A DNA stretch of 64,000 nucleotides from Oxalicibacterium flavum (GTDB lineage Bacteria > Pseudomonadota > Gammaproteobacteria > Burkholderiales > Burkholderiaceae_D): NCBI RefSeq assembly GCF_014635065.1, contig NZ_BMCG01000001.1, forward strand, positions 62,001-126,000. The letters are read 5' to 3'. Positions 26,533-52,498 of this stretch are shown here, in pieces. Below the pieces are notes generated by a model. That model ran no database searches, was not told where the DNA came from, and worked only from the letters and a program-made list of their open reading frames with translations. Each line of letters begins with the position of its first letter. Within the stretch, counting starts at the first letter, position 1. A program made the translations under genes and the position numbers.

Positions 26533-27957
26533 CTACTCGGCGACGTCGCCGTCGGACTGCGGCAGCTCGATCGGAATGAACAGGCGCGCGGAACCGCGCT
26601 GCACCAGTAGCGCCACCGCGCCCTCTGCGTTCCCGACCTCTTCCAGCAGTGCTGGAATACCGGCCACCGGATGCCCGTTAACCGCCAGCACGATATCGCC
26701 GACCTTGACGCCAGCCCGGGACACGGCCGCACTGACCCGCTGCACCAGCAGGCCGCCGTCGATGCGTAGCACCTGCTGTTCCTGCACCAGCAGCGGCCGC
26801 ACCACCAGCCCCAGCGGCCCGGGCATTTCCGACCGCGCCTGACGGGCCGGCAATGAAGGCAGATCGAAGCGGTCCGGCACTACCTGAAGCACCTGCTGCG
26901 TGCGGTCGCGCCAAATCAGGAACGGCGCCGGCTGGCCCGGCGTCAGGCCCGCGATATGGATCAGCGCATCGGCCGACTGCACCACGTCGCGGGTGCCGAT
27001 TCTCATGATGACATCGCCCGAACGGATGCCGGCCCGGTCGGCGGCGCCTCCCTTCTCGACATAGCCGATCAACGCCCCCTGCGGTCGTGGCAACTGGAAC
27101 GACTGCGCCAGCGCCTGTCCCACTTCCTGCACGGAGATGCCGATCCTTCCACGCGTCACCATGCCCTTCGTCTGAAGTTGCCGCTTGATGTCCATCGCGA
27201 CGTCGATCGGAATCGCGAATGACAATCCCTGATAGCCACCGCTGTTGCTGTAGATGCGTGCATTGATGCCGATCACCTCGCCGTTCAGGTTGAACAGCGG
27301 TCCGCCCGAGTTGCCGGGATTGACAGGCACGTCCGTCTGCAAGAACGGCATGTATTCCGCGCCAGGCAGAATCCGACGCTTGGCGCTGACGATGCCCGCC
27401 GTCGCCGAATTGCTGAAGCCGTAGGGCGAGCCGATCGCCAGTGCCCAGTCACCCACTTCTGTGCGTTCCGGATCGCCGATGCGCACCGTCGGCAGGCCGC
27501 GGGCCTCGATCTTGAGCAACGCCACATCGGCCACGCTGTCCGTGCCGATCAATTGTGCCCTGAACTCACGCCGGTCCGTCAGCTTGACGATGATCTGGCT
27601 GCCGCGCGCGACCACGTGCGCATTGGTCAGGATGAACCCGTCCTCGCTGACGATGAATCCCGAACCGAGGCTGCCGTCGTCGGTGCCGCCCTGCGGCGGG
27701 AAGCCGTGCGGTCGCGTTGCCGATGCCTCGCGCGCAACGCCGATATTGACAACCGCCGGACCGTAGGTACGCGCCATCGCAGAAAAATCCGGTACGCTCC
27801 ACAGCACGCCGCGCTGGGTCGCAGCGCATCCCGTCACACCCACTGCCATACTCGCCATGGTCAGTGCCAACAGGCCGCAAACCAGAACCCGGCGACCTGC
27901 GCCGTTCCGCGCAGCCGCATGCCGTGCCGGTACAGACAGCGGACGTTTCATCGTCAT
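26533..27957 (-). CDS. HtrA/DegP-type serine protease, probable lipoprotein
   Basis: A 474-aa member of the HtrA family. A signal peptide ends in a lipobox (VTGC, Cys44), so it is likely tethered to a membrane in the periplasm. The trypsin-like domain has the triad His114 (TNAHVV), Asp144 (ADVALLKI) and Ser217 (GNSGGP). Two PDZ-like regions follow (about 265-355 and 385-465). HtrA proteins degrade or chaperone unfolded envelope proteins; in Bordetella DegP acts as a chaperone for the filamentous haemagglutinin during export. The gene is last in a run after the giant exoprotein, the second protease and a TonB-C-like gene, so a dedicated role for the exoprotein is plausible but inferred. Confidence 0.88.
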   Translation of the reverse strand: MTMKRPLSVPARHAAARNGAGRRVLVCGLLALTMASMAVGVTGCAATQRGVLWSVPDFSAMARTYGPAVVNIGVAREASATRPHGFPPQGGTDDGSLGSGFIVSEDGFILTNAHVVARGSQIIVKLTDRREFRAQLIGTDSVADVALLKIEARGLPTVRIGDPERTEVGDWALAIGSPYGFSNSATAGIVSAKRRILPGAEYMPFLQTDVPVNPGNSGGPLFNLNGEVIGINARIYSNSGGYQGLSFAIPIDVAMDIKRQLQTKGMVTRGRIGISVQEVGQALAQSFQLPRPQGALIGYVEKGGAADRAGIRSGDVIMRIGTRDVVQSADALIHIAGLTPGQPAPFLIWRDRTQQVLQVVPDRFDLPSLPARQARSEMPGPLGLVVRPLLVQEQQVLRIDGGLLVQRVSAAVSRAGVKVGDIVLAVNGHPVAGIPALLEEVGNAEGAVALLVQRGSARLFIPIELPQSDGDVAE

Positions 27958-27973
27958 CGGCGAAGTGCGTGCA

Positions 27974-28465
27974 TCACGACGATGTCACCATCTTCAGCGA
28001 CAGTTGCAGCACCATCGGCAGGCGCATGTCGGGCGGCGGAGGTTCGGATAGTGGCTGCGCAGTCATGATGCTGCGCAGATCGGCATCGGCCTGGTTCTGT
28101 CCCAAGGACGCGAACTCCATTCGCCCCACGCGGCCGTTCGGCTCGACCCAGACTCGCACCACCAGCGAGGTCGGCACCGGCGGCCCATCCTGAAGCAGAC
28201 GTTCCTGCATCCACGCATGCAGGCGCTGAACCGACTCGTCATCCGGGTTGCCGAGCCACGCTTCGAACTGATTGCTCGCCATCTGCGCGTAACTGATCCA
28301 GTGCTGCGGCACCGGTTGCGCGGCAGGCGCCTGTGCCTGTGCCGGCGAAGAGGAAACACTCAGGCCGAGGCCGACGATCCCCAGCATCCGGAGGGCGCGA
28401 TTGCCCAGGCGCCTGGTCCAGGAGAGCGGTGCGGCAGTGGAAGGGTTTTCATTGTTTTTGCGCAT
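27974..28465 (-). CDS. exported TonB C-terminal-like protein without TonB anchor
   Basis: A 163-aa exported protein with a signal peptide ending near AQA-Q (residue 45). The C-terminal half (VVRVWVEPNGRVGRMEF, DADLRSIM) resembles the TonB C-terminal fold, which contacts TonB boxes or periplasmic signalling domains. There is no proline-rich spanning region, so it cannot act as a normal energy transducer. A larger frame overlaps upstream to 29095, but the ATG at 28465 begins the signal peptide. It lies 56 bases after the trypsin-like protease and 16 before the HtrA lipoprotein. The role is unknown; the TonB-C call rests on pattern only. Confidence 0.65.
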   Translation of the reverse strand: MRKNNENPSTAAPLSWTRRLGNRALRMLGIVGLGLSVSSSPAQAQAPAAQPVPQHWISYAQMASNQFEAWLGNPDDESVQRLHAWMQERLLQDGPPVPTSLVVRVWVEPNGRVGRMEFASLGQNQADADLRSIMTAQPLSEPPPPDMRLPMVLQLSLKMVTSS

Positions 28466-28521
28466 GGAATGTCCGTCACGATAGGGATTAAGTCTGTTGA
28501 TCGAGTCGCCAGGAAACAAGG

Positions 28522-29307
28522 TCAGCCGCACACGATGCCAGCCGATAGCGTGGCTGCGCGGCTTGCCGGGGATTGATGCGGTCCGAGCTGGGGCTGGTCG
28601 CTGACCGCAAAGGGAATCGCATACGCATCGAGAAACTGCCGGATCTGCGCCACGCCGACCGCACGCACCGCGGTCGAGCCTGCGGCACCGAGCTTCGTGG
28701 TGCTCTTGCTCAAGGTCGTGATCGGCGCGTTGTAGCCCGTAAGCCCGACCGGCACGCGCTCCACCACCATGCCCAGCAACAGTCCTGCGCTGCCCAGCAC
28801 GCCGCTGCCGCTTGCGCCCTGCCTGGCGCCGGACAGCAATTGCAAGCCATCCCGCCCCGCAATGGTGACGGCATTGCTCAGCAGCGCGTGCCGTTCCGAC
28901 AAACGCTGCAGCACGGCATGGGCCTCGGCAAAGACCGTCTGGCCGCCATGCGTGGCCGGGTCCGTCAGGGGCAGCGTGGCGCTCAGATACGGTTTTAGCG
29001 TGGTGGACAAGACCGCCAGGTCCAGGCTGGCGTCGATGGCACGCACGCTTGCCTGCACCACCTGGCCATCCTTGAGGACGTACACCGTCCCGCATCGCTC
29101 GACCGCATGCGCGGCCGTCAGCACGTCGCCCTGCCGATTGAGAAACACGCCGCTGGCATGGGCATCGATCGCCAATGCCCTTGCAGAAGATACATTCGCC
29201 TGCGCGCTCGCCGGCGACACATCAGCCATCAACATGCAGGCCATCAGCATGCCTGTCGTCATGCATGCCTTGTCCGCATACCGGCCGTACCGACCGATTC
29301 TTTCCAC
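28522..29307 (-). CDS. exported trypsin-like serine protease
   Basis: A 261-aa protein with an N-terminal signal (residues about 16-36, cleavage near ASA-Q). It has a compact trypsin-like domain without PDZ: His67 (LTAAHAV), Asp96 (DASLDLAVL) and probable nucleophile Ser166 (GASGSG). Such S1-type proteases cut periplasmic or surface proteins. Its promoter region (29374-29422) carries the composite ECF-sigma/Pho-like element seen also before tpsB, so it is probably co-regulated with the secretion system. Candidate substrates are the adjacent giant exoproteins or the FecR-type anti-sigma factor; neither is shown. Confidence 0.78.
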   Translation of the reverse strand: MERIGRYGRYADKACMTTGMLMACMLMADVSPASAQANVSSARALAIDAHASGVFLNRQGDVLTAAHAVERCGTVYVLKDGQVVQASVRAIDASLDLAVLSTTLKPYLSATLPLTDPATHGGQTVFAEAHAVLQRLSERHALLSNAVTIAGRDGLQLLSGARQGASGSGVLGSAGLLLGMVVERVPVGLTGYNAPITTLSKSTTKLGAAGSTAVRAVGVAQIRQFLDAYAIPFAVSDQPQLGPHQSPASRAATLSAGIVCG

Positions 29308-29373
29308 TTTTCCGCTCCCTTGTTCCTTCGTGTCATGGTCGTTCCGACGCCCGCGCAGAAACGGCCATGACTA

Positions 29374-29422
29374 CTAGACGGAATAGAAGCGGCAAAACCG
29401 CAATTTGTCATCAAACCGTCAT
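29374..29422 (-). promoter_or_regulatory. composite ECF-sigma and Pho-box-like promoter before the protease operon
   Basis: On the minus strand CGGTT (29400-29396), 15 bases, CGTCTAG (29380-29374) look like ECF -35 and -10 elements, 67 bases before the protease start. Just upstream on the plus strand are two Pho-box-like repeats, TTGTCAT (29405-29411) and CCGTCAT (29416-29422), separated by CAAA, with the 11-base spacing of a Pho box. The same parts at the same spacing occur at 52313-52361. The repeats run opposite to the direction of transcription, which is unusual for a Pho box. Confidence 0.65.
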
Positions 29423-40697: not shown

Positions 40698-40724
40698 TTA
40701 GACGAATATCGATGAAGGAAGCTG
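40698..40724 (-). promoter_or_regulatory. possible weak ECF promoter before tpsA1
   Basis: The minus strand has CGTCTAA (40704-40698), the same core as the -10 of the two composite promoters, 65 bases before the tpsA1 start. With the same 15-base spacer the -35 is CAGCT against CGGTT, and no Pho-box repeats lie upstream. Chance is quite possible. Confidence 0.3.
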
Positions 40725-40796: not shown

Positions 40797-41768
40797 TCAG
40801 CGCAGCAGCACGATGCCGCCCGGCAGGTTTTTGACATCGAGATGAAACAATCGCTGGATCTGTGCAATCGCGCCGTCCAGATCGCGTATCTGGAAACGGC
40901 CGCTGACCGGCTTGTCACGCACCGCGCCTGCCAACAGCACGACGCGTCCCGGGCGGTAACGGTTGATCTCGGCGATGACTTCCTCCAGCGCCGTCTTGCT
41001 GAAGGTGAGAATGCCGCTACCCCATGTCGAAACCTGCTCCGCCTGAAGGGTTCGGATCGGCTGCATGCCATTGCTGTCATAGACGACCTGCTGATTTGCA
41101 TGCAGCACTAGTTGCATGCCCGCGACGGTCACGCGCAGACTACCTGCAGTGCAGGTGACGCACTCGCCAGATTCGCGGACGCGGACTTCAAAACTGGCTT
41201 GGTCGGCCTGCAGCCGACCCAGCCCGGTGGCGACGACAAACGGCCTGCCCGGCCTTTCCATTTGTACTGCGACCTCGCCTTCGAGCAGCCGGATGCCGTC
41301 GACCTCACCCATCCCTGCGCGTTGTACCGCGATGCTGCTGCGCGTGTTCATGTTGACGATCACGTCGGACGTCAGGCTGATGCTGCGCTGCTCGCCGGTT
41401 GCCGTACGGTAATCGGCCTGCCAGGCACTCGTTATTGACGGCAGCAGGTCCATGGGCGAATAGAGCAGGACCACGCCGGTCGCCGCGGAGGCAGCCAGCA
41501 CACCGCCCAGGAACAGACGACGACCTGCGTCCATCTGATTCCTGCGGTTGCGACCGGCGCGCAGCATGGCCAGTTCGGAATCATCGATGCCAGCCAGCGC
41601 GGCTGCCGGCAGCAGATCGTTCCATTTTTGCTGTGCTGCGCGAAACGCCTCCTCATGCGCCGTGCTGATGGCGCACCAGCGTGCCAGCGCCCGCGCGTCG
41701 CGGGGACGAAGCGCGCCTGAACGCATACGGCGTACCCATGCGTGCGCCTGTTTCTCCAACTCATTCAT
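40797..41768 (-). CDS. FecR-type anti-sigma factor (VreR-like)
   Basis: A 323-aa inner-membrane regulator. The cytosolic N-terminal DUF4880-like part (5-50, with WVRRMRSGAL and ARALARWCAISTAHEEAFR) holds the sigma factor. One membrane helix is at about 84-104. The periplasmic FecR domain (about 115-215) follows, then an STN-like end (about 255-323, TFSKTALEEVIAEINRYRPGRV). In such systems a receptor's signalling domain binds this end and triggers stepwise proteolysis that frees the sigma factor. It lies 139 bases after the ECF sigma gene and before tpsA1, the order expected for a cell-surface signalling unit. P. aeruginosa VreR is the closest functional parallel I know. Confidence 0.9.
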   Translation of the reverse strand: MNELEKQAHAWVRRMRSGALRPRDARALARWCAISTAHEEAFRAAQQKWNDLLPAAALAGIDDSELAMLRAGRNRRNQMDAGRRLFLGGVLAASAATGVVLLYSPMDLLPSITSAWQADYRTATGEQRSISLTSDVIVNMNTRSSIAVQRAGMGEVDGIRLLEGEVAVQMERPGRPFVVATGLGRLQADQASFEVRVRESGECVTCTAGSLRVTVAGMQLVLHANQQVVYDSNGMQPIRTLQAEQVSTWGSGILTFSKTALEEVIAEINRYRPGRVVLLAGAVRDKPVSGRFQIRDLDGAIAQIQRLFHLDVKNLPGGIVLLR

Positions 41769-41907: not shown

Positions 41908-42414
41908 TCATCGCATCTGCTCGACCAGATACTCATGCGCCCGCTTGAGTTCGCGGTCGACCAGGCTGAGGGAAATGCCAAGCCGCTCGGCGACGTCCTG
42001 TCGCGACCATTCGTCGACCCGGACGAGGATCAGAATGTGGCGTCGGCGTGCCGGCATTTTCTCAATCAGGGCCGCCAGCCGGTCGGCTTCGTATCTCGCC
42101 TCGACCGTGGCGGCCGGACCGGGAATCGGATCCACCAAGCCGAGCAGTACCTGATCGACCTCCTCGCCACTCATATACCGACGCTCGGCACGAATGCGAT
42201 CAAGTGCGGTATTGATCGCCATGCGCATCAAGTAACTGAGCGGGTATTTGACGGGCTCCGTGGGCTCCTTTCCGCTTTCCAGCCGCAGCCATGTTTCCTG
42301 CAGAGCTTCGTTCGCCAAATCGGCACTTCCCAAATGAAGGGTGAGTCGATGCCGCAACTCGTCGTAACGTCCGACCAGGAACTCGCGCAACGTGGTGACA
42401 ATCGAATCGCTCAT
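41908..42414 (-). CDS. ECF sigma factor (FecI/VreI-like)
   Basis: A 168-aa group IV sigma factor with only regions 2 and 4. Region 2 spans about 20-80 (LANEALQETWLRLES, YLMRMAINTALDRIRAERR). Region 4 spans about 112-165 (RRRHILILVRVDEWSRQDVAERLGIS, the last part being the -35-binding helix-turn-helix). It starts 6 bases after the stop of the STN-domain gene and is followed by the FecR gene, so the three form a receptor-sigma-anti-sigma unit. The composite promoters at 52313-52361 and 29374-29422 are the best candidates for its targets. Confidence 0.93.
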   Translation of the reverse strand: MSDSIVTTLREFLVGRYDELRHRLTLHLGSADLANEALQETWLRLESGKEPTEPVKYPLSYLMRMAINTALDRIRAERRYMSGEEVDQVLLGLVDPIPGPAATVEARYEADRLAALIEKMPARRRHILILVRVDEWSRQDVAERLGISLSLVDRELKRAHEYLVEQMR

Positions 42415-42420
42415 GCATGT

Positions 42421-43107
42421 TCACTCTGACTGGCAACCATCCAAGCTCCCCGACTGCGGCAGCAGCAATATGAAGAAGGGTCGCTGCGTATCGGCCGGCA
42501 CCTCGGCTAGGTGCGTGCCACGCAGGGCAGCGACGATAGCCTGATCTCGCCTGGCATCCCCTGTGGTATCGAGCAGATCGACGCGATGGATGCGTCCCTG
42601 CGTATTGACATAAAGACGTATTGCCGCGCGAAAGTCCCTGACAGCCAAAAAGGGATCGCCACAGAACGCATCGCGAATCCCGCGTTGCAGGACAGCGTCG
42701 TACCCCAGCACCCTGGTATCCGTAGCAGCCCCATCGAAATCCGATTGTTCGAGAACGAAAGCGTTGGCTGCGGTAAAGTGCGCGCGCAGACCGGTTCCCA
42801 GCAACAAGATTCGCAATGCCTGGCTTGGCGTGTACCAACCCGACAGCGGTGTCGACCACAGATTGTTCGTGGTGCTGGACAGATAAAGCCCCGACCACCC
42901 GGTGCGCGCGCCAAACATATCAAGTGCCTGTTGCAATGGCAGCGCGGGAATGACGAGGTGAACGCTTCCGGTGGCAGATAACTCATCCTCCACGCCGCTG
43001 GACACGGGTGCCATAGCGGTTGCGGTGCAGGGAAACGAGTGGGAAGCGAGCAATAGCATGCCAATCACTGAAACGAATGCACGGATGAGCGGCCCAGCTC
43101 GTGCCAT
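42421..43107 (-). CDS. STN-domain receptor-like protein fused to a TonB-C-like domain (VreA-like)
   Basis: A 228-aa exported protein: signal peptide (1-33), STN signalling domain (about 50-120, LVIPALPLQQALDMFGARTGW, TPSQALRILLLGTGL), then a TonB-C-like domain (about 155-222, AAIRLYVNTQGRIHRVDL). There is no beta-barrel, so it is not a normal TonB-dependent receptor. This matches the plan of P. aeruginosa VreA, the unusual PUMA3 receptor-like protein that lacks a barrel. It would pass an envelope signal to the FecR protein encoded downstream. The frame extends to 43188; I chose the ATG at 43107 because it begins the signal peptide, with no strong ribosome-binding site for any start. Confidence 0.82.
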   Translation of the reverse strand: MARAGPLIRAFVSVIGMLLLASHSFPCTATAMAPVSSGVEDELSATGSVHLVIPALPLQQALDMFGARTGWSGLYLSSTTNNLWSTPLSGWYTPSQALRILLLGTGLRAHFTAANAFVLEQSDFDGAATDTRVLGYDAVLQRGIRDAFCGDPFLAVRDFRAAIRLYVNTQGRIHRVDLLDTTGDARRDQAIVAALRGTHLAEVPADTQRPFFILLLPQSGSLDGCQSE

Positions 43108-43245
43108 GAGATGAATCGGAGTCAAACAGAAAGGAAGGCGCGGGCAGGAATGCATCCGGCCAAGTCTTGCGTCATCGTAAGTACCCAATGTGACGACGCT
43201 GTGACAGTCGACCTGCCCGTTGCATTGCGGCTTCTGCAGGCGGAT

Positions 43246-47640: not shown

Positions 47641-48330
47641 TTAGCCGGGACGACGTCCCTTGCTGGAAATGCGGACCGGGAATTTCTGCGTGGTCGATGG
47701 CGGAGCGCCGCTGTCGAACTCACCAATGACAGCCAGTACCGCTTCGTCGATGGCGGGATTGCCACTGCTTTTGACGAGTTCAACGCGCACTGTCCTGCCT
47801 TGCGCATCGAGCCAGACGTTGTAGCGAATGTCCTCAAAAGCCAGTTTCCTGGTACGAGCGTCACGTTGAAGGGCATTCTGGAATCCATGCGCCAGGAAAC
47901 TGGAGTAAGAACCCATGCCGCCGCCACTGCCGGTCATGCCACCACCGCGGCCGGCTGCGATGCCAAACGAGTCCGTACCAGCCTGCGCCTCACCGTCGAT
48001 GGTCACTGCCTCGCCCGGTTCAGGCGCTGGCGGTGCATCATCCGGCGTATCGACAGGACTCGGCTCTGGTTCCGGCACCACTTCCGGCTCCGGTTCCGGC
48101 TCGGGTTCCGGCACCTTTTCAGGCTCTGGCGGTGGAGGCGGCGGAGGCGGCAGCATCAGCATTGGCGGCGTAGCGACTTCACGTCGGGTACTGGCGGTAT
48201 CCGACAGCAAGTACCATGTCAGTGCGGCCAACACGATCAGTACCGCCGCACCGATCGCATATCCTCCCCAGCGGCGCCAGAAGCTTCTGGCCTTCGATGG
48301 CGGGAATGAAGTTGAATCACGACGAATCAC
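47641..48330 (-). CDS. tonB: TonB family energy transducer
   Basis: A 229-aa TonB: a short basic N-terminus, one membrane helix (about 21-42), a Pro/Glu-rich spacer (about 55-105, PPPPPPPPEPEKVPEPEPEP) and a C-terminal TonB domain (about 145-225, IRYNVWLDAQGRTVRVELV). It should couple proton flow through the adjacent ExbB-like and ExbD proteins to an outer-membrane partner. The start is GTG at 48330 with an AGGGGAG ribosome-binding site. It lies 10 bases after exbD. The partner may be the putative porin, TpsB or the VreA-like protein; no TonB-dependent receptor gene is present in the window. Confidence 0.9.
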   Translation of the reverse strand: MIRRDSTSFPPSKARSFWRRWGGYAIGAAVLIVLAALTWYLLSDTASTRREVATPPMLMLPPPPPPPPEPEKVPEPEPEPEPEVVPEPEPSPVDTPDDAPPAPEPGEAVTIDGEAQAGTDSFGIAAGRGGGMTGSGGGMGSYSSFLAHGFQNALQRDARTRKLAFEDIRYNVWLDAQGRTVRVELVKSSGNPAIDEAVLAVIGEFDSGAPPSTTQKFPVRISSKGRRPG

Positions 48331-48340
48331 ATCACTCCCC

Positions 48341-48751
48341 TCAAGTTGCCTTGCCCGTCACCAGACCAACCTGATTCAGGTCGATACGACGCAGCAGATC
48401 CAGAACTTCCACCACCTTGGCGTACTGGACCGAGGCATCCCCGCGCACGATGACGGGGAAATCCGGTGTCAGCGCCTTTTCCGTGCGCAGCCGTTCTTCG
48501 AGCTCCGGCAGCGTCACCGGGTAAGCGTCGAGAAATACCTGTCCCGCGTTATCCACCGTGATTGCCTTGGTCTTCGGCTTTTCCAGCGCAACCGATGAGC
48601 TTGCCTTGGGCAGATCGACCTGTATGCCCGGGATGCTGGCATTACTGGTGAGGATGAAGATAACCAGTACCACCAGCAGCACGTCCACGAACGGAGTGAT
48701 ATTGATCCCGCCAGAGCGCTTCTTGATGCCGAACTTCGCTGCGTTTGCCAT
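48341..48751 (-). CDS. exbD: ExbD family proton channel subunit
   Basis: A 136-aa ExbD/TolR protein: a cytosolic N-terminus, one membrane helix (about 21-40) carrying Asp23 (TPFVDVLLVVLVIF), the proton-carrying residue of the family, and a periplasmic domain (about 45-136). Start at the ATG at 48751, although the frame is open further upstream in the ExbB gene. It lies 13 bases after the ExbB fusion and 10 before tonB. Confidence 0.93.
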   Translation of the reverse strand: MANAAKFGIKKRSGGINITPFVDVLLVVLVIFILTSNASIPGIQVDLPKASSSVALEKPKTKAITVDNAGQVFLDAYPVTLPELEERLRTEKALTPDFPVIVRGDASVQYAKVVEVLDLLRRIDLNQVGLVTGKAT

Positions 48752-48764
48752 GATCGTGTGCTCC

Positions 48765-50540
48765 TCAGGCGCGTTGCGCCACGGAGCGGAGCTGACGGCC
48801 TTCGCCCTGCTCTTCCGCCAGGCGGGTAGCGAACTCGTCCACGAACACGGCCATGTCAGCGCTGATAGCTTCCGCACGCGCCGCCAGCCAGTTGTAGCCG
48901 AACAGCGCCGGGATCGCGACACCGAGGCCCGCCGCAGTACACAGCAGTGCCGCGGCCATGCCTGGCGCAACCGAATTGATATCCACGGCGCCCGCCATCG
49001 CAGCCACCACGAACACCAGCATGATGCCAATGACGGTACCGAACAGACCGACATACGGCGCGCCCTCAATTGCGGTAGAGAGCCAGTTCATGCGGTTTGC
49101 CATGCGTTCGTTCTCACGCACCATCACGCCATCCATCGCCGCGCGAATGGCACCGATGGTCGTTTCCGAGACGGCGTTCATGTCATAGCCACGTTCATGG
49201 CGGCGGTTCATCTCGTTGATGGCAACCGCATACAGGCGCCACAGCGACGAATCACGCTTGATGTCTGCGCCAAGCCGTCCGGCTACTGCAAGCTGTTCAA
49301 GCGGTGCACCGGCAGTCTGGTGGAAGTGCTCCATGAACTCCGCATTGGCACGAGAGATCGCGCCATACGTACGGCTCTTGTTGATCATGATGGCCCAAGA
49401 AGCGGCCATCATCAGCCCCAGCACGATGACCACCAGCCAGGCGTCAAGCGGCATGGCCGAGAGGATGAAGCCGAAGTGGCTCTTGCCGGCCTGCTGCTCG
49501 TCCACGCCAAACGTCGTCAGGCGCGATTCCGAGCCTTGCGACACGGCGTCGGCCATCACCAGTCCTTCGGGGCGCGCCACCTTGGACAGGCGCAACTCGT
49601 CAATGGCGCCAGTGAACTGACGGAATTCGCCCGAGGCGCTTTCTACATCGTCGCCCACAGCAGCAACGGTATTCATAGCCGGCAGCGCTACAGGGAGCGA
49701 CACGCTGGGACGTCCACCGACATACATGACGACGTTGGCAGCATCGGCGGTCACGGCAATGTGCGACCACTGCTCTGCACGGACCGGCTGACCAGGCGCA
49801 GTACGCTGGCCGTTCACCTGGACGAACGGAATACCCGAGTCGATACCGATCAACAAGGAGTTGGCGCCGTCGCGACGCGCGTAGAGAAGTTGCTGCGGAC
49901 CGAGCTGGTCCGGACGCACCCATGCCGAGAAAGAGAACGGCGCACCCGCCTCCTGCTTGAGCGATGGCGAAGCCGGAAGCATCAGAGGCGCGGCGCCGAG
50001 CTGCACACCCTTGCCGATCACGGTGCCGTCGATGACGGGAACGGTGGTCTGCGCGTTGTTGCCATAGGCAGTGGTATCTCTTGCGGGAACGTTCGCTTCG
50101 CCGAAGTGATAGATCAGTGTGTAGTCCGGATCAAAGGTACGCTGGCCATTGCCCGATGCCGGCGCCTTGGCATTGCCGTAGTACATCCACAACGGTTGCG
50201 GTGCGGCCGCCGAGACCGCCGGCATATCAACCCAGATCAGTGCGATGCCGAGCAGCGGATCGAATTGTTCGATCTGGTGATTGAGCACGACCTTGTCGTC
50301 GCTGGTAACAAAGCGAATGTCCGCACCGGTCTCGCTGGCATCGGCAAACGAGAAGTTGCCCGTATGCAGACGCACCAGTACCGGCGTACGTCCTGCATCC
50401 GCACCGAGCGCGGCACCCTGCGGGCCGGCATCGATGGTCACTTGTTTACGATATGCCCAGTCGGGCTGCCACCAGGCATGGGCCAGGTTAGGAACGATTG
50501 TGCTCATCAATGTCAGCACAAGAAAAAGAATGCGTCGCAT
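48765..50540 (-). CDS. DUF2341-LamG-ExbB fusion protein
   Basis: A 591-aa fusion. After a signal peptide (1-22) comes a DUF2341 domain (about 25-130, with VLVRLHTGNF, PLWMYYGNAKA). A LamG/concanavalin-like domain follows (about 140-330, FSFSAWVRPDQ, WSHIAVTADA, GAIDELRLSK). The ExbB/TolQ/MotA proton channel part (about 360-591) has three membrane helices (LVVIVLGLMMAASWAIM, YVGLFGTVIGIMLVFVV and LCTAAGLGVAIPALFGYN). It puts a sugar-binding-like module in the periplasm on a TonB-motor stator. GGAG precedes the ATG at 50540; an in-frame start at 50588 would spoil the signal peptide. ExbD and TonB follow, so the three form one motor. Confidence 0.88.
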   Translation of the reverse strand: MRRILFLVLTLMSTIVPNLAHAWWQPDWAYRKQVTIDAGPQGAALGADAGRTPVLVRLHTGNFSFADASETGADIRFVTSDDKVVLNHQIEQFDPLLGIALIWVDMPAVSAAAPQPLWMYYGNAKAPASGNGQRTFDPDYTLIYHFGEANVPARDTTAYGNNAQTTVPVIDGTVIGKGVQLGAAPLMLPASPSLKQEAGAPFSFSAWVRPDQLGPQQLLYARRDGANSLLIGIDSGIPFVQVNGQRTAPGQPVRAEQWSHIAVTADAANVVMYVGGRPSVSLPVALPAMNTVAAVGDDVESASGEFRQFTGAIDELRLSKVARPEGLVMADAVSQGSESRLTTFGVDEQQAGKSHFGFILSAMPLDAWLVVIVLGLMMAASWAIMINKSRTYGAISRANAEFMEHFHQTAGAPLEQLAVAGRLGADIKRDSSLWRLYAVAINEMNRRHERGYDMNAVSETTIGAIRAAMDGVMVRENERMANRMNWLSTAIEGAPYVGLFGTVIGIMLVFVVAAMAGAVDINSVAPGMAAALLCTAAGLGVAIPALFGYNWLAARAEAISADMAVFVDEFATRLAEEQGEGRQLRSVAQRA

Positions 50541-50584
50541 GGGTTGGTTCTCCGAGAACTGATGTGGAATGTCTACAAAAGGGT

Positions 50585-52219
50585 TCAATAAGTGGCGTTG
50601 AGGCTGAAGTTCACGCTCGAGTCGTGACGTTCCGTGCGTGGACCGGTCTTGAGGGGATAACCGACATCGATGCGCCCGCTCACGTGTTCACCGAGGCGGA
50701 AGCTGGTACCGAGACCGAGCGATGCCAGCGAAAATGTATGCTCCTGATCCGGCAACGGGTCGCGCAATTTCAGCCTGCCCGCGTCGGCAAAGGCATAGAC
50801 ACGCCAGTTGTCCACCCATGGCGCCAGAATGGTCAACGGTTTGCTGCGCATCTCGATCGAACCGACCGTACCGTAGTCTCCGGTGGCTTCGGCCGACAGG
50901 TAACCGCGCACCGAATTCATCCCGCCGGCGGCAATCTGCTCGCCCGAGACCAACGGCGAATCCGTCATCTGCACCGACAGACGGAAACCGAACTGAGCAT
51001 CGTTGGCAAAGTTATAGGCGCCGTTCAGGTCGCCCTTGACGAGCGTAAAACTGGGTTTGGCGAAGGCGCGCTTGTAGTGGAAATCGGCCTCGTCGCTGCT
51101 GTAGCCAAACAGGCTGCGGGTGCCGGTTGTCACCGAAAGACCAACGCTGTAGTAGCTCTTTTCGTTCTGCACGAAGCCGGCATAGCCCAGCGTAATAGGC
51201 GCATAACGCAATGGCACCTCATCGCTGCTCCCACCAAGCTGCAGGGCTTCGTCGTTCTGTTTGAAGTCCACGCCCAAACTGATCGCATGCCACCAATTGC
51301 CGGTGTCGGGAACCGTATAGGTTGCCTTTACGCCAACCGCATGGCCCTTACCCAGCACAGTCGTGCCGCCTACCGTGGACACCGTGCTGTCGGACTTGTA
51401 ACCCGAGCCTTCAATGCTCCAGTTGGTACCGCGCAGAGGGGCAGTGTAGGAAGCCGACCAGACCTTGGTCTGGTCCAGATCCTGGGGCGTGCCGAAGAAA
51501 CTGAGCGACGCGCTATGGCCGAGCTGCCACAGGTTGTCGTGTCCGATCGACAGCGTGGCGCGCAAACGTTCGGTATCGGCGCTGTAATCGTTGTTCAGGC
51601 CAGCGCTGGCACGCCACGGACTGCTGTCCTCCACCTTGAGATCGACGTCCATGGTGCCCGGCAGCGCACCTTGCTTGACCAGCGGCAGCACCTGTCGCTT
51701 GCCGGTGCGATTGAGCGCGGTCAGTTCGGCCTGAGCCTTCGTGAAGTCCGGTACCGATCCTTCCTTCAGCGAAGGTACCTGATCACGCACCTCGACCGGC
51801 GAGTTGTACCGGGAACCGACTACACGCACACGGCCGACACGTGTTTCATTTACCGCCAGATAGACCACCCCGCCCGTTACCTGTTGCTCGGGCAGATCGA
51901 CATAGACGGATTGGTAGCCGCGTGCCGCATAAGCCGACAGCAAGGCCTCGCGCGCACTCTCTACATCCTTGAGCGTGCGGTCGGGTCCAAGGTAGGGCTC
52001 CAATGCCAGCTCGATGGTTTTCGCATCGAGCACTGTATTACCGCGAACGATGTATTCGTTGATCTCTACCCGCTTCTCGACTACCGCCTCTCCGCTCGGA
52101 GCGTCAGTCGGTGATTCCTGGGCATTCGCCGTCACCACCGCACAGAGGGCCAATGCCGCCATCGAAATCGCCTTCAGTTTGAACCGCCGGTTGTCAAACC
52201 CATTTTTTACTTCGCGCAT
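50585..52219 (-). CDS. two-partner secretion outer-membrane transporter TpsB (FhaC/ShlB family)
   Basis: A 544-aa Omp85-type transporter. Signal peptide (cleavage near ANA-Q, residue 34), two POTRA domains (about 50-125 and 130-200) and a 16-strand beta-barrel. The conserved VRGY of motif 3, at the tip of the loop that enters the pore, is at 437-440. The protein ends in an aromatic Tyr. It should move the adjacent TpsA exoproteins over the outer membrane after recognising their TPS domains. Its promoter region holds the composite ECF/Pho-like element. It lies downstream of tpsA2 across a terminator and 44 bases before the DUF2341-ExbB gene, so it starts the operon. Confidence 0.93.
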   Translation of the reverse strand: MREVKNGFDNRRFKLKAISMAALALCAVVTANAQESPTDAPSGEAVVEKRVEINEYIVRGNTVLDAKTIELALEPYLGPDRTLKDVESAREALLSAYAARGYQSVYVDLPEQQVTGGVVYLAVNETRVGRVRVVGSRYNSPVEVRDQVPSLKEGSVPDFTKAQAELTALNRTGKRQVLPLVKQGALPGTMDVDLKVEDSSPWRASAGLNNDYSADTERLRATLSIGHDNLWQLGHSASLSFFGTPQDLDQTKVWSASYTAPLRGTNWSIEGSGYKSDSTVSTVGGTTVLGKGHAVGVKATYTVPDTGNWWHAISLGVDFKQNDEALQLGGSSDEVPLRYAPITLGYAGFVQNEKSYYSVGLSVTTGTRSLFGYSSDEADFHYKRAFAKPSFTLVKGDLNGAYNFANDAQFGFRLSVQMTDSPLVSGEQIAAGGMNSVRGYLSAEATGDYGTVGSIEMRSKPLTILAPWVDNWRVYAFADAGRLKLRDPLPDQEHTFSLASLGLGTSFRLGEHVSGRIDVGYPLKTGPRTERHDSSVNFSLNATY

Positions 52220-52312
52220 GAATTGAACTCATCTCAAGGAATCAAAATCCGTCTTCGCAACTCGAACTTCACCTGCTTGGCCAGTTGATCGTTCAATGTT
52301 GCGTACAGATTC

Positions 52313-52361
52313 CTAGACGTTTTGAATGGGCAACAACCGTCATTTGTCATCAAACTTTCAT
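52313..52361 (-). promoter_or_regulatory. composite ECF-sigma and Pho-box-like promoter before tpsB
   Basis: On the minus strand CGGTT (52339-52335), 15 bases, CGTCTAG (52319-52313) fit ECF -35 and -10 elements, 94 bases before tpsB. Plus-strand repeats TTGTCAT (52344-52350) and CTTTCAT (52355-52361), separated by CAAA, fit a Pho box. Every part has the same spacing as at 29374-29422, and a 14-base block (ATTTGTCATCAAAC) is identical. It would drive the operon from tpsB to at least the small coupled gene at 43246. Confidence 0.65.
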
Positions 52362-52397
52362 ATTTCTTTTTTCTGCATATGGCCCGCGTCATGTTCA

Positions 52398-52434
52398 ATA
52401 AAAAAACCGGACTCGGCTTTCACCAGAGTCCGGT
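52398..52434 (-). terminator. intrinsic terminator of tpsA2
   Basis: On the minus strand an ACCGGACTC/GAGTCCGGT stem with an 11-base loop is followed by seven T residues. It lies 65 bases after the tpsA2 stop and separates it from the tpsB promoter. Confidence 0.85.
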
Positions 52435-52498
52435 CCATTGGCATGAGCTTTTTGCATTCGTGACAAGTCGCCACCTGCAGCGTCCCAAGCTCCCTTTG

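Follow-up and report, generated by a model that had tools for sequence, protein, structure and literature searches.

The best-studied counterparts of the promoters described here belong to the PUMA3 system of Pseudomonas aeruginosa, whose pdtA and phdA genes depend on the extracytoplasmic function (ECF) sigma factor sigma-VreI together with the response regulator PhoB. For strain PAO1, the start sites of pdtA and phdA have been mapped, PhoB has been found to bind both promoters, and it has been proposed that PhoB recruits sigma-VreI; at pdtA, both PhoB repeats, the –35 and the –10 element are all required, and loss of the repeats abolishes activity (PMC4971064, Quesada et al. 2016). An earlier note on the DNA studied here had stated that sigma-VreI of P. 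aeruginosa needs PhoB at its promoters, in agreement with that work. PUMA3-like clusters in Janthinobacterium, R. palustris and B. vietnamiensis were noted in 2009 (Llamas et al., PMC2729926) and, like the locus analyzed here, combine repeated PUMA3-tpsA modules with a single tpsB-exbBD cluster; their promoters are not discussed in the portions of that paper available to us. As to the direction of the PhoB-binding repeats (Pho box), the accessible part of PMC4415409 describes head-to-tail binding only and that of PMC7035377 makes no mention of box orientation. The literature searched contained no description of a class-wide reversal of the box set against forward boxes with sigma-70-like elements within one circuit.

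The 64-kb window (the whole stretch of DNA analyzed here) holds a locus whose genes lie on the minus strand in the order tpsA1, tpsB, ExbB, ExbD, a TonB-like gene, a Porin_5 protein, a PPIase, a VreA-like protein with an STN domain, an ECF sigma factor, a FecR-type anti-sigma factor, tpsA2 and a three-gene protease operon. VreA-, VreI- and VreR-like genes are thus linked at the locus, as in PUMA3. The first tpsA gene runs off the window end and carries the DUF3739 of filamentous hemagglutinins; tpsA2 combines a TPS domain with DUF3739. The transporter gene tpsB (ShlB/POTRA type, 50585–52219, minus strand) is followed by the ExbB, ExbD and TonB-like genes (47641–50588, minus). The ExbB homolog (48765–50588) is a fusion protein with DUF2341 and laminin-G/lectin-like domains at its N terminus, and it lies beside tpsB in relatives as well; a search with PF10102 also gave matches in two of 14 control genomes, both archaea. 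The regulatory genes, all on the minus strand, comprise the VreA-like gene (42421–43188; true start uncertain), the VreI-type sigma factor (41908–42414) and the VreR-like, FecR-type anti-sigma factor (40797–41768). The protease operon (26533–29307, minus) encodes a trypsin-like protein (28522–29307), a middle gene ending at 27974 that has no Pfam match, and a DegP-like protein with PDZ domains (26533–27957). Just beyond the window, ahead of tpsA1, lies a second VreA-sigma-FecR module (stretch L100, 2539–4777; genome C1:128.4–130.7 kb) with its sigma gene at C1:129498–129989; the stretches examined from the relative G150 contain three modules of this kind.

Two composite elements stand out in this locus. 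Site 1 (52313–52361, minus strand) is flanked by the tpsA1 stop (52499) and the tpsB start (52219), downstream of an intrinsic terminator that follows tpsA1 (52395–52442, minus; –23.3 kcal/mol, z –4.87, seven-U run). Site 2 (29374–29422, minus) starts 21 bases past the tpsA2 stop codon, ahead of the protease operon. Their letters in the direction of transcription are ATGAAAGTTTGATGACAAATGACGGTTGTTGCCCATTCAAAACGTCTAG for site 1 (52361 to 52313) and ATGACGGTTTGATGACAAATTGCGGTTTTGCCGCTTCTATTCCGTCTAG for site 2 (29422 to 29374). In each, two ATGAC-like repeats with an 11-base period are followed after four bases, counted from the second 7-mer, by a –35 element CGGTT (52335–52339 and 29396–29400, minus) and, 15 bases on, by a –10 element CGTCTAG (52313–52319 and 29374–29380, minus). 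Between-genus conservation supports the –35 and –10 elements of site 1; those of site 2 were read from the sequence. Because ATGAC is GTCAT on the opposite strand, the Pho boxes of both sites oppose transcription: read in their own direction, on the plus strand, they are TTGTCAT-CAAA-CTTTCAT at site 1 (52344–52361; 7-mers at 52344–52350 and 52355–52361) and TTGTCAT-CAAA-CCGTCAT at site 2 (29405–29422). Using a register taken from alignment with pdtA, transcription is predicted to start near 52307 at site 1; the corresponding prediction for site 2 is a start near 29368.

A 49-base pattern derived from the two sites themselves, searched in the window with up to three mismatches, returned just these two matches, each with no mismatch, and none in 100 dinucleotide-preserving shuffles of the window. 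In Pho-box scoring of both window strands, the two sites ranked at the top (10.9 each; next best, 10.2). The search and the gene positions thus bear out the earlier note, which had described two 49-bp elements with the same parts at the same distances, one before tpsB and the other before the protease operon.

The sequence of P. aeruginosa PA7 allowed a direct comparison with PUMA3. Its locus is orthologous, with linked VreA, sigma, FecR, tpsA, tpsB, exbB, exbD, tonB and Porin_5 genes, and its pdtA and phdA promoters each show two reversed TGTCAT-like repeats with an 11-base period, a CGG –35 element and, 15 bases on, a CGTC –10 element. Both window sites likewise have two Pho-type repeats of this period just upstream of the –35 and share the –35 to –10 spacing (CGGTT-N15-CGTCTAG); they differ in having four rather than five bases between box and –35. 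The published PAO1 numbering fits PA7 pdtA in a single register, with an A at +1, GC at –30/–29, repeats at –56 to –50 and –45 to –40, and GTCTTCC as the essential –11 to –5 stretch, the +1 falling 59 bases before the assumed ATG as against the published 53 (PMC4971064). Since the available text of that paper gives no promoter letters, the box orientation in PAO1 is read here from PA7. Two further differences from the P. aeruginosa system concern gene content: more than one tpsA module is among the candidate targets here, as is the protease operon, and tpsA2 directly follows fecR, with no Hxc-type genes between.

We then asked how far the element is conserved. A TpsB search of 294 family genomes gave 144 matches at E ≤ 1e-40, and the best 30 of these 144 loci were examined: 26 close orthologs with a complete upstream region (our own and 25 relatives), one locus cut by a contig end (G289) and three distant ones (34–39% identity). 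The element was present before tpsB, gap-free and with identical spacing, in all 26 complete loci; in G289 the contig ends inside the element and its remaining second half agrees, while the three distant loci among these best 30 are without it. Across 63 between-genus pairs, drawn from 14 of the 26 loci and three genera, the box was kept at an identity of 0.92, the –10 at 0.83, the –35 at 0.64 and the spacer at 0.38, against 0.28–0.29 (chance) in the flanks; the ten bases immediately preceding the box reached 0.52 and the ten that follow the –10 reached 0.41. About ten bases after the –10 of the tpsB sites, near the expected start, lies a modestly conserved (0.41) GCATCWGTA-like patch, whose CATCAG is also present in PA7 pdtA. 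In two relatives (G163 and G257; stretches L014 and L015), two composite promoters stand in tandem before tpsB, separated by 141 and 149 bp.

The element also travels with the sigma gene. With up to three mismatches allowed, the 49-base pattern occurs in 26 of the 294 family genomes and, reversed as a control, in none of them; all 26 fall among the 32 genomes whose sigma match reaches E ≤ 1e-12. Of the remaining six, G289 is the genome with the contig-cut locus, and the sigma matches of the other five are weak (E 1.6e-14 to 4.9e-13).

The earlier note had proposed scanning the whole genome with a matrix built from both sites. This was run with a profile of 19 sites, trained without Pseudomonas, over 27 genomes, the best 150 first-look candidates being scored in each. 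In our own 3.2-Mb genome (best 150 of 1500 candidates), three sites reached E ≤ 1, all at this locus: sites 1 and 2 and a further one before tpsA1, outside the window (C1:128408). The own sites were part of the training set and their recovery is therefore by construction; the absence of further sites is not. A matrix trained without the own-genome sites still ranked the two window sites first (48.8 and 33.4; next, –1.0) and placed the tpsA1 site first in L100 (19.3; next, –0.4). Within the candidates scored, the motif is thus confined to the locus rather than scattered, and the earlier count of two elements holds for the window, with a third to be added for the genome.

Across the 27 genomes (best 150 candidates each), the profile gave 31 matches below E 1e-5. 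One that was absent from training, in G251 (C33:53850, E 1.3e-7), precedes the same protease operon; other matches outside the training set lie between fecR and a tpsA in G146 and G157. The profile also gave a second match in G251, at C40:207 (E 1.6e-7), and weaker ones, e.g., at C48:6502 (E 0.01). In seven relatives that lack a sigma match (G022, G114, G172, G026, G059, G072 and G201), the best 150 candidates gave no matches or partial ones, with E > 0.1. PA7, likewise outside training, yielded two full-length matches at E ≤ 1 (E 0.145 and 0.251, each weak singly), one just upstream of tpsA (pdtA) and one between tpsA and tpsB (by position phdA, between pdtA and pdtB). P. protegens had no match at E ≤ 1 among its best 150 candidates, its tpsA site being only a looser match.

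Weight-matrix and geometric scans of the fetched stretches gave further sites. Sites before tpsA1 occur in our own genome, G048, G168 and G163, with a weaker one in G150, and sites before the protease operon in G150 and G127, with a weaker one in G168. These scans detected no site upstream of the protease operon of G224 and G163, of tpsA1 in G224, G257 and G215, or of the third tpsA of G150. Relatives also vary from CGGTT/CGTC, with CAGTY as –35 and TGTC or GGTC as –10. The –10 reads CGTCTAG before tpsB, the protease operon and tpsA2 and is CGTCATA-like before tpsA1; an attempt to match these –10 types to the window sigma and the second sigma gave no assignment, as GTCTAG at tpsB persists in genomes that have no close relative of the first sigma.

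A contrasting arrangement precedes tpsA2, where a sigma core (CAGCTT-N14-CGTCTA; 40699–40724, minus strand) has no adjacent Pho box. The same box-free core (GTAYAGSTT, N14, CGTCTA) was present in seven of seven modules examined (the window, L102, L104, L106, L108, L111 and L235), and tpsA2 is possibly a phosphate-independent target of the same sigma factor. This core is preceded in G150 and G127 by a forward Pho box, TGTCATCTGATTGTCAT, whose end lies 78 bp upstream of it (L104 1700–1960 and L111 11480–11760), suggesting stacked promoters.

Conservation at tpsB, confinement to the locus and the matches at PA7 pdtA and phdA, taken together, make it very probable that sites 1 and 2 are PUMA3-kind promoters used by a VreI-type ECF sigma factor together with PhoB. 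The earlier note had named them as targets of the local sigma factor and PhoB. The unscattered motif, its co-occurrence with the sigma gene in the 294 genomes and the PA7 architecture support the pairing of a VreI-type sigma with PhoB, but which sigma is meant by "local" is ambiguous, because the second VreA-sigma-FecR module adjoins the window.

The orientation of the box sets these promoters apart from canonical sigma-70/PhoB promoters, with which they share the 7 + 4 repeat unit. In the canonical layout a forward box takes the place of the –35 and is followed, ten bases on, by TAnnnT; sites 1 and 2 instead carry a reversed box and then a –35 of their own. A bare Pho-box pattern with three mismatches was uninformative genome-wide (242 matches versus 204 in a reversed control), and we kept the 23 matches with zero to two mismatches, i.e., sites 1 and 2 and 21 others. 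From these 21, pstS, ppk and ppx were picked by eye, and Pfam agrees with the picks (PBP_like_2, PP_kinase and Ppx-GppA); all three have forward boxes with TAnnnT ten bases on. About 4 kb from pstS lies a PhoB gene that scores exactly at the family cut-off (296.2).

The vreA gene, whose promoter was reportedly the subject of a study by Faure et al. in 2013, follows the canonical pattern. Its forward box in the window (43174–43207, minus strand; CTGTCAC-AGCG-TCGTCAC, ten bases, TACGAT) scores 9.6, equal to the 99% level for random stretches of 450 bp; 11 of the 18 vreA boxes compared exceed that level. In 16 of the 18 modules the forward box outscores every reverse box (exceptions, G215 and P. 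protegens), and TAnnnT follows at exactly ten bases in 14 of 18 (exceptions, the first module of G224, G215, PA7 and P. protegens). Upstream of tpsB, the reverse box scores best in all 26 sites (from the best 30 of the 144 loci), as it is reversed at both window sites and at PA7 pdtA and phdA. Judged from these sequences, a forward box accompanies sigma-70-like elements and a reverse box accompanies VreI-type elements. The earlier note was right that the repeats point away from transcription, but what it called an odd geometry is, on the same sequences, the rule for the sigma-VreI/PhoB class.

One lineage departs from this picture. A genome that we take, from its repeat type, to be Stenotrophomonas-like has an orthologous locus in which a forward box abuts CGGTT-N15-CGTCCTG before tpsB; this arrangement is kept in 34 of the 91 genomes of its genus, and the genome gave no profile match at E ≤ 1 among its best 150 candidates. 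If this element is a VreI-type promoter, box direction is not universal. The vre locus of this genome (L132 and L133) also contains two DING/PstS-like genes.

Several other accounts of the two sites deserve consideration. As the box reads forward on the plus strand, in the manner of the boxes at pstS, ppk, ppx and vreA, it could serve an opposite-strand sigma-70/PhoB promoter, antisense to the tpsA 3′ end, with CGGTT and CGTCTAG unrelated to it, and on that side the ten bases next to the box do show some conservation (0.52). Yet TAnnnT follows at ten bases in none of the 26 tpsB sites (from the best 30 of 144) and is absent at site 2, as against 14 of 18 vreA boxes and our own ppk, pstS and ppx, and the flank past those ten bases falls to 0.22–0.30 identity while the –35 and –10 on the tpsB side are conserved; we regard an antisense promoter as very improbable. 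Still less credible is that the likeness of the sites merely reflects a recent duplication of tpsA 3′ ends. Each site does follow a tpsA paralog, but the element is kept where between-genus flanks are at chance identity, the tpsA1 sites sit at the other end of that gene, and the PA7 pdtA site lies upstream of its tpsA.

It is unlikely, though less so than either of these, that the repeats bind another regulator of the OmpR/PhoB family, or that PhoB represses from them, the sigma core alone making the promoter. The genome is rich in response-regulator genes (the PhoB model matches 56 at E ≤ 0.001, of which one is at the cut-off), and the core before tpsA2 manages without a box. The repeat is CTGTCAT-like, however, as at pstS and ppk, and the PAO1 pdtA repeats bind PhoB, their loss abolishing activity rather than raising it (PMC4971064).

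If sites 1 and 2 are indeed promoters of the VreI-type sigma and PhoB, the circuit may work as follows. When phosphate is low, PhoB on the forward vreA box, acting with the sigma-70-like –10, would first switch on the vreA-sigma-fecR operon, in what would amount to a feed-forward loop. A signal would then free the VreI-type sigma from its FecR-type anti-sigma factor, and the freed sigma would read the –35 (CRGTY) and –10 (CGTCTAG) elements, at these promoters only with phosphorylated PhoB on the box just upstream. Such dependence on an occupied box would make output require low phosphate and the release signal together, opening tpsB-exbB-exbD-tonB, the protease operon and also tpsA1, which lies beyond the window. 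With the box reversed and ending 4 bp above the –35, PhoB would be turned round, and its distance to the –10 would exceed that in a sigma-70 Pho promoter by about 14 bp. In PAO1, control of the vre operon by PhoB has been reported, as has the double requirement (PMC4971064); for the present organism we infer PhoB and sigma binding, the start sites and the AND logic from the DNA.

The two orientations also raise a more tentative idea, which we hold to be possible though on balance somewhat doubtful: that the sigma factor is chosen by the direction of the Pho box. Sigma-70 polymerase would be recruited where a forward box takes the position of the –35 (vreA, pst, ppk), and VreI-type polymerase where a reversed box lies 4–5 bp above the –35. 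The PA7 sequences indicate that such a direction code would already be present in the P. aeruginosa promoters that have been studied. Were it true, PhoB would touch region 4 of the ECF sigma via a face other than the one used with sigma-70, and a single activator would serve the two layers of the circuit with no cross-firing between them.

Sites 1 and 2 are very probably additions to the known class of sigma-VreI/PhoB promoters. With them, an architecture studied in Pseudomonas is extended to three genera in the family to which the window belongs, and a protease operon joins the candidate targets of the class. These promoters carry the PhoB site in reverse, while it points forward with the sigma-70-like elements of the same loci, so that how one response regulator recruits two sigma factors becomes directly testable. 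For the organism, the locus appears to be a candidate switch by which a secretion system for giant proteins, along with a protease operon, would be turned on only when phosphate is scarce and the dedicated sigma factor is free.
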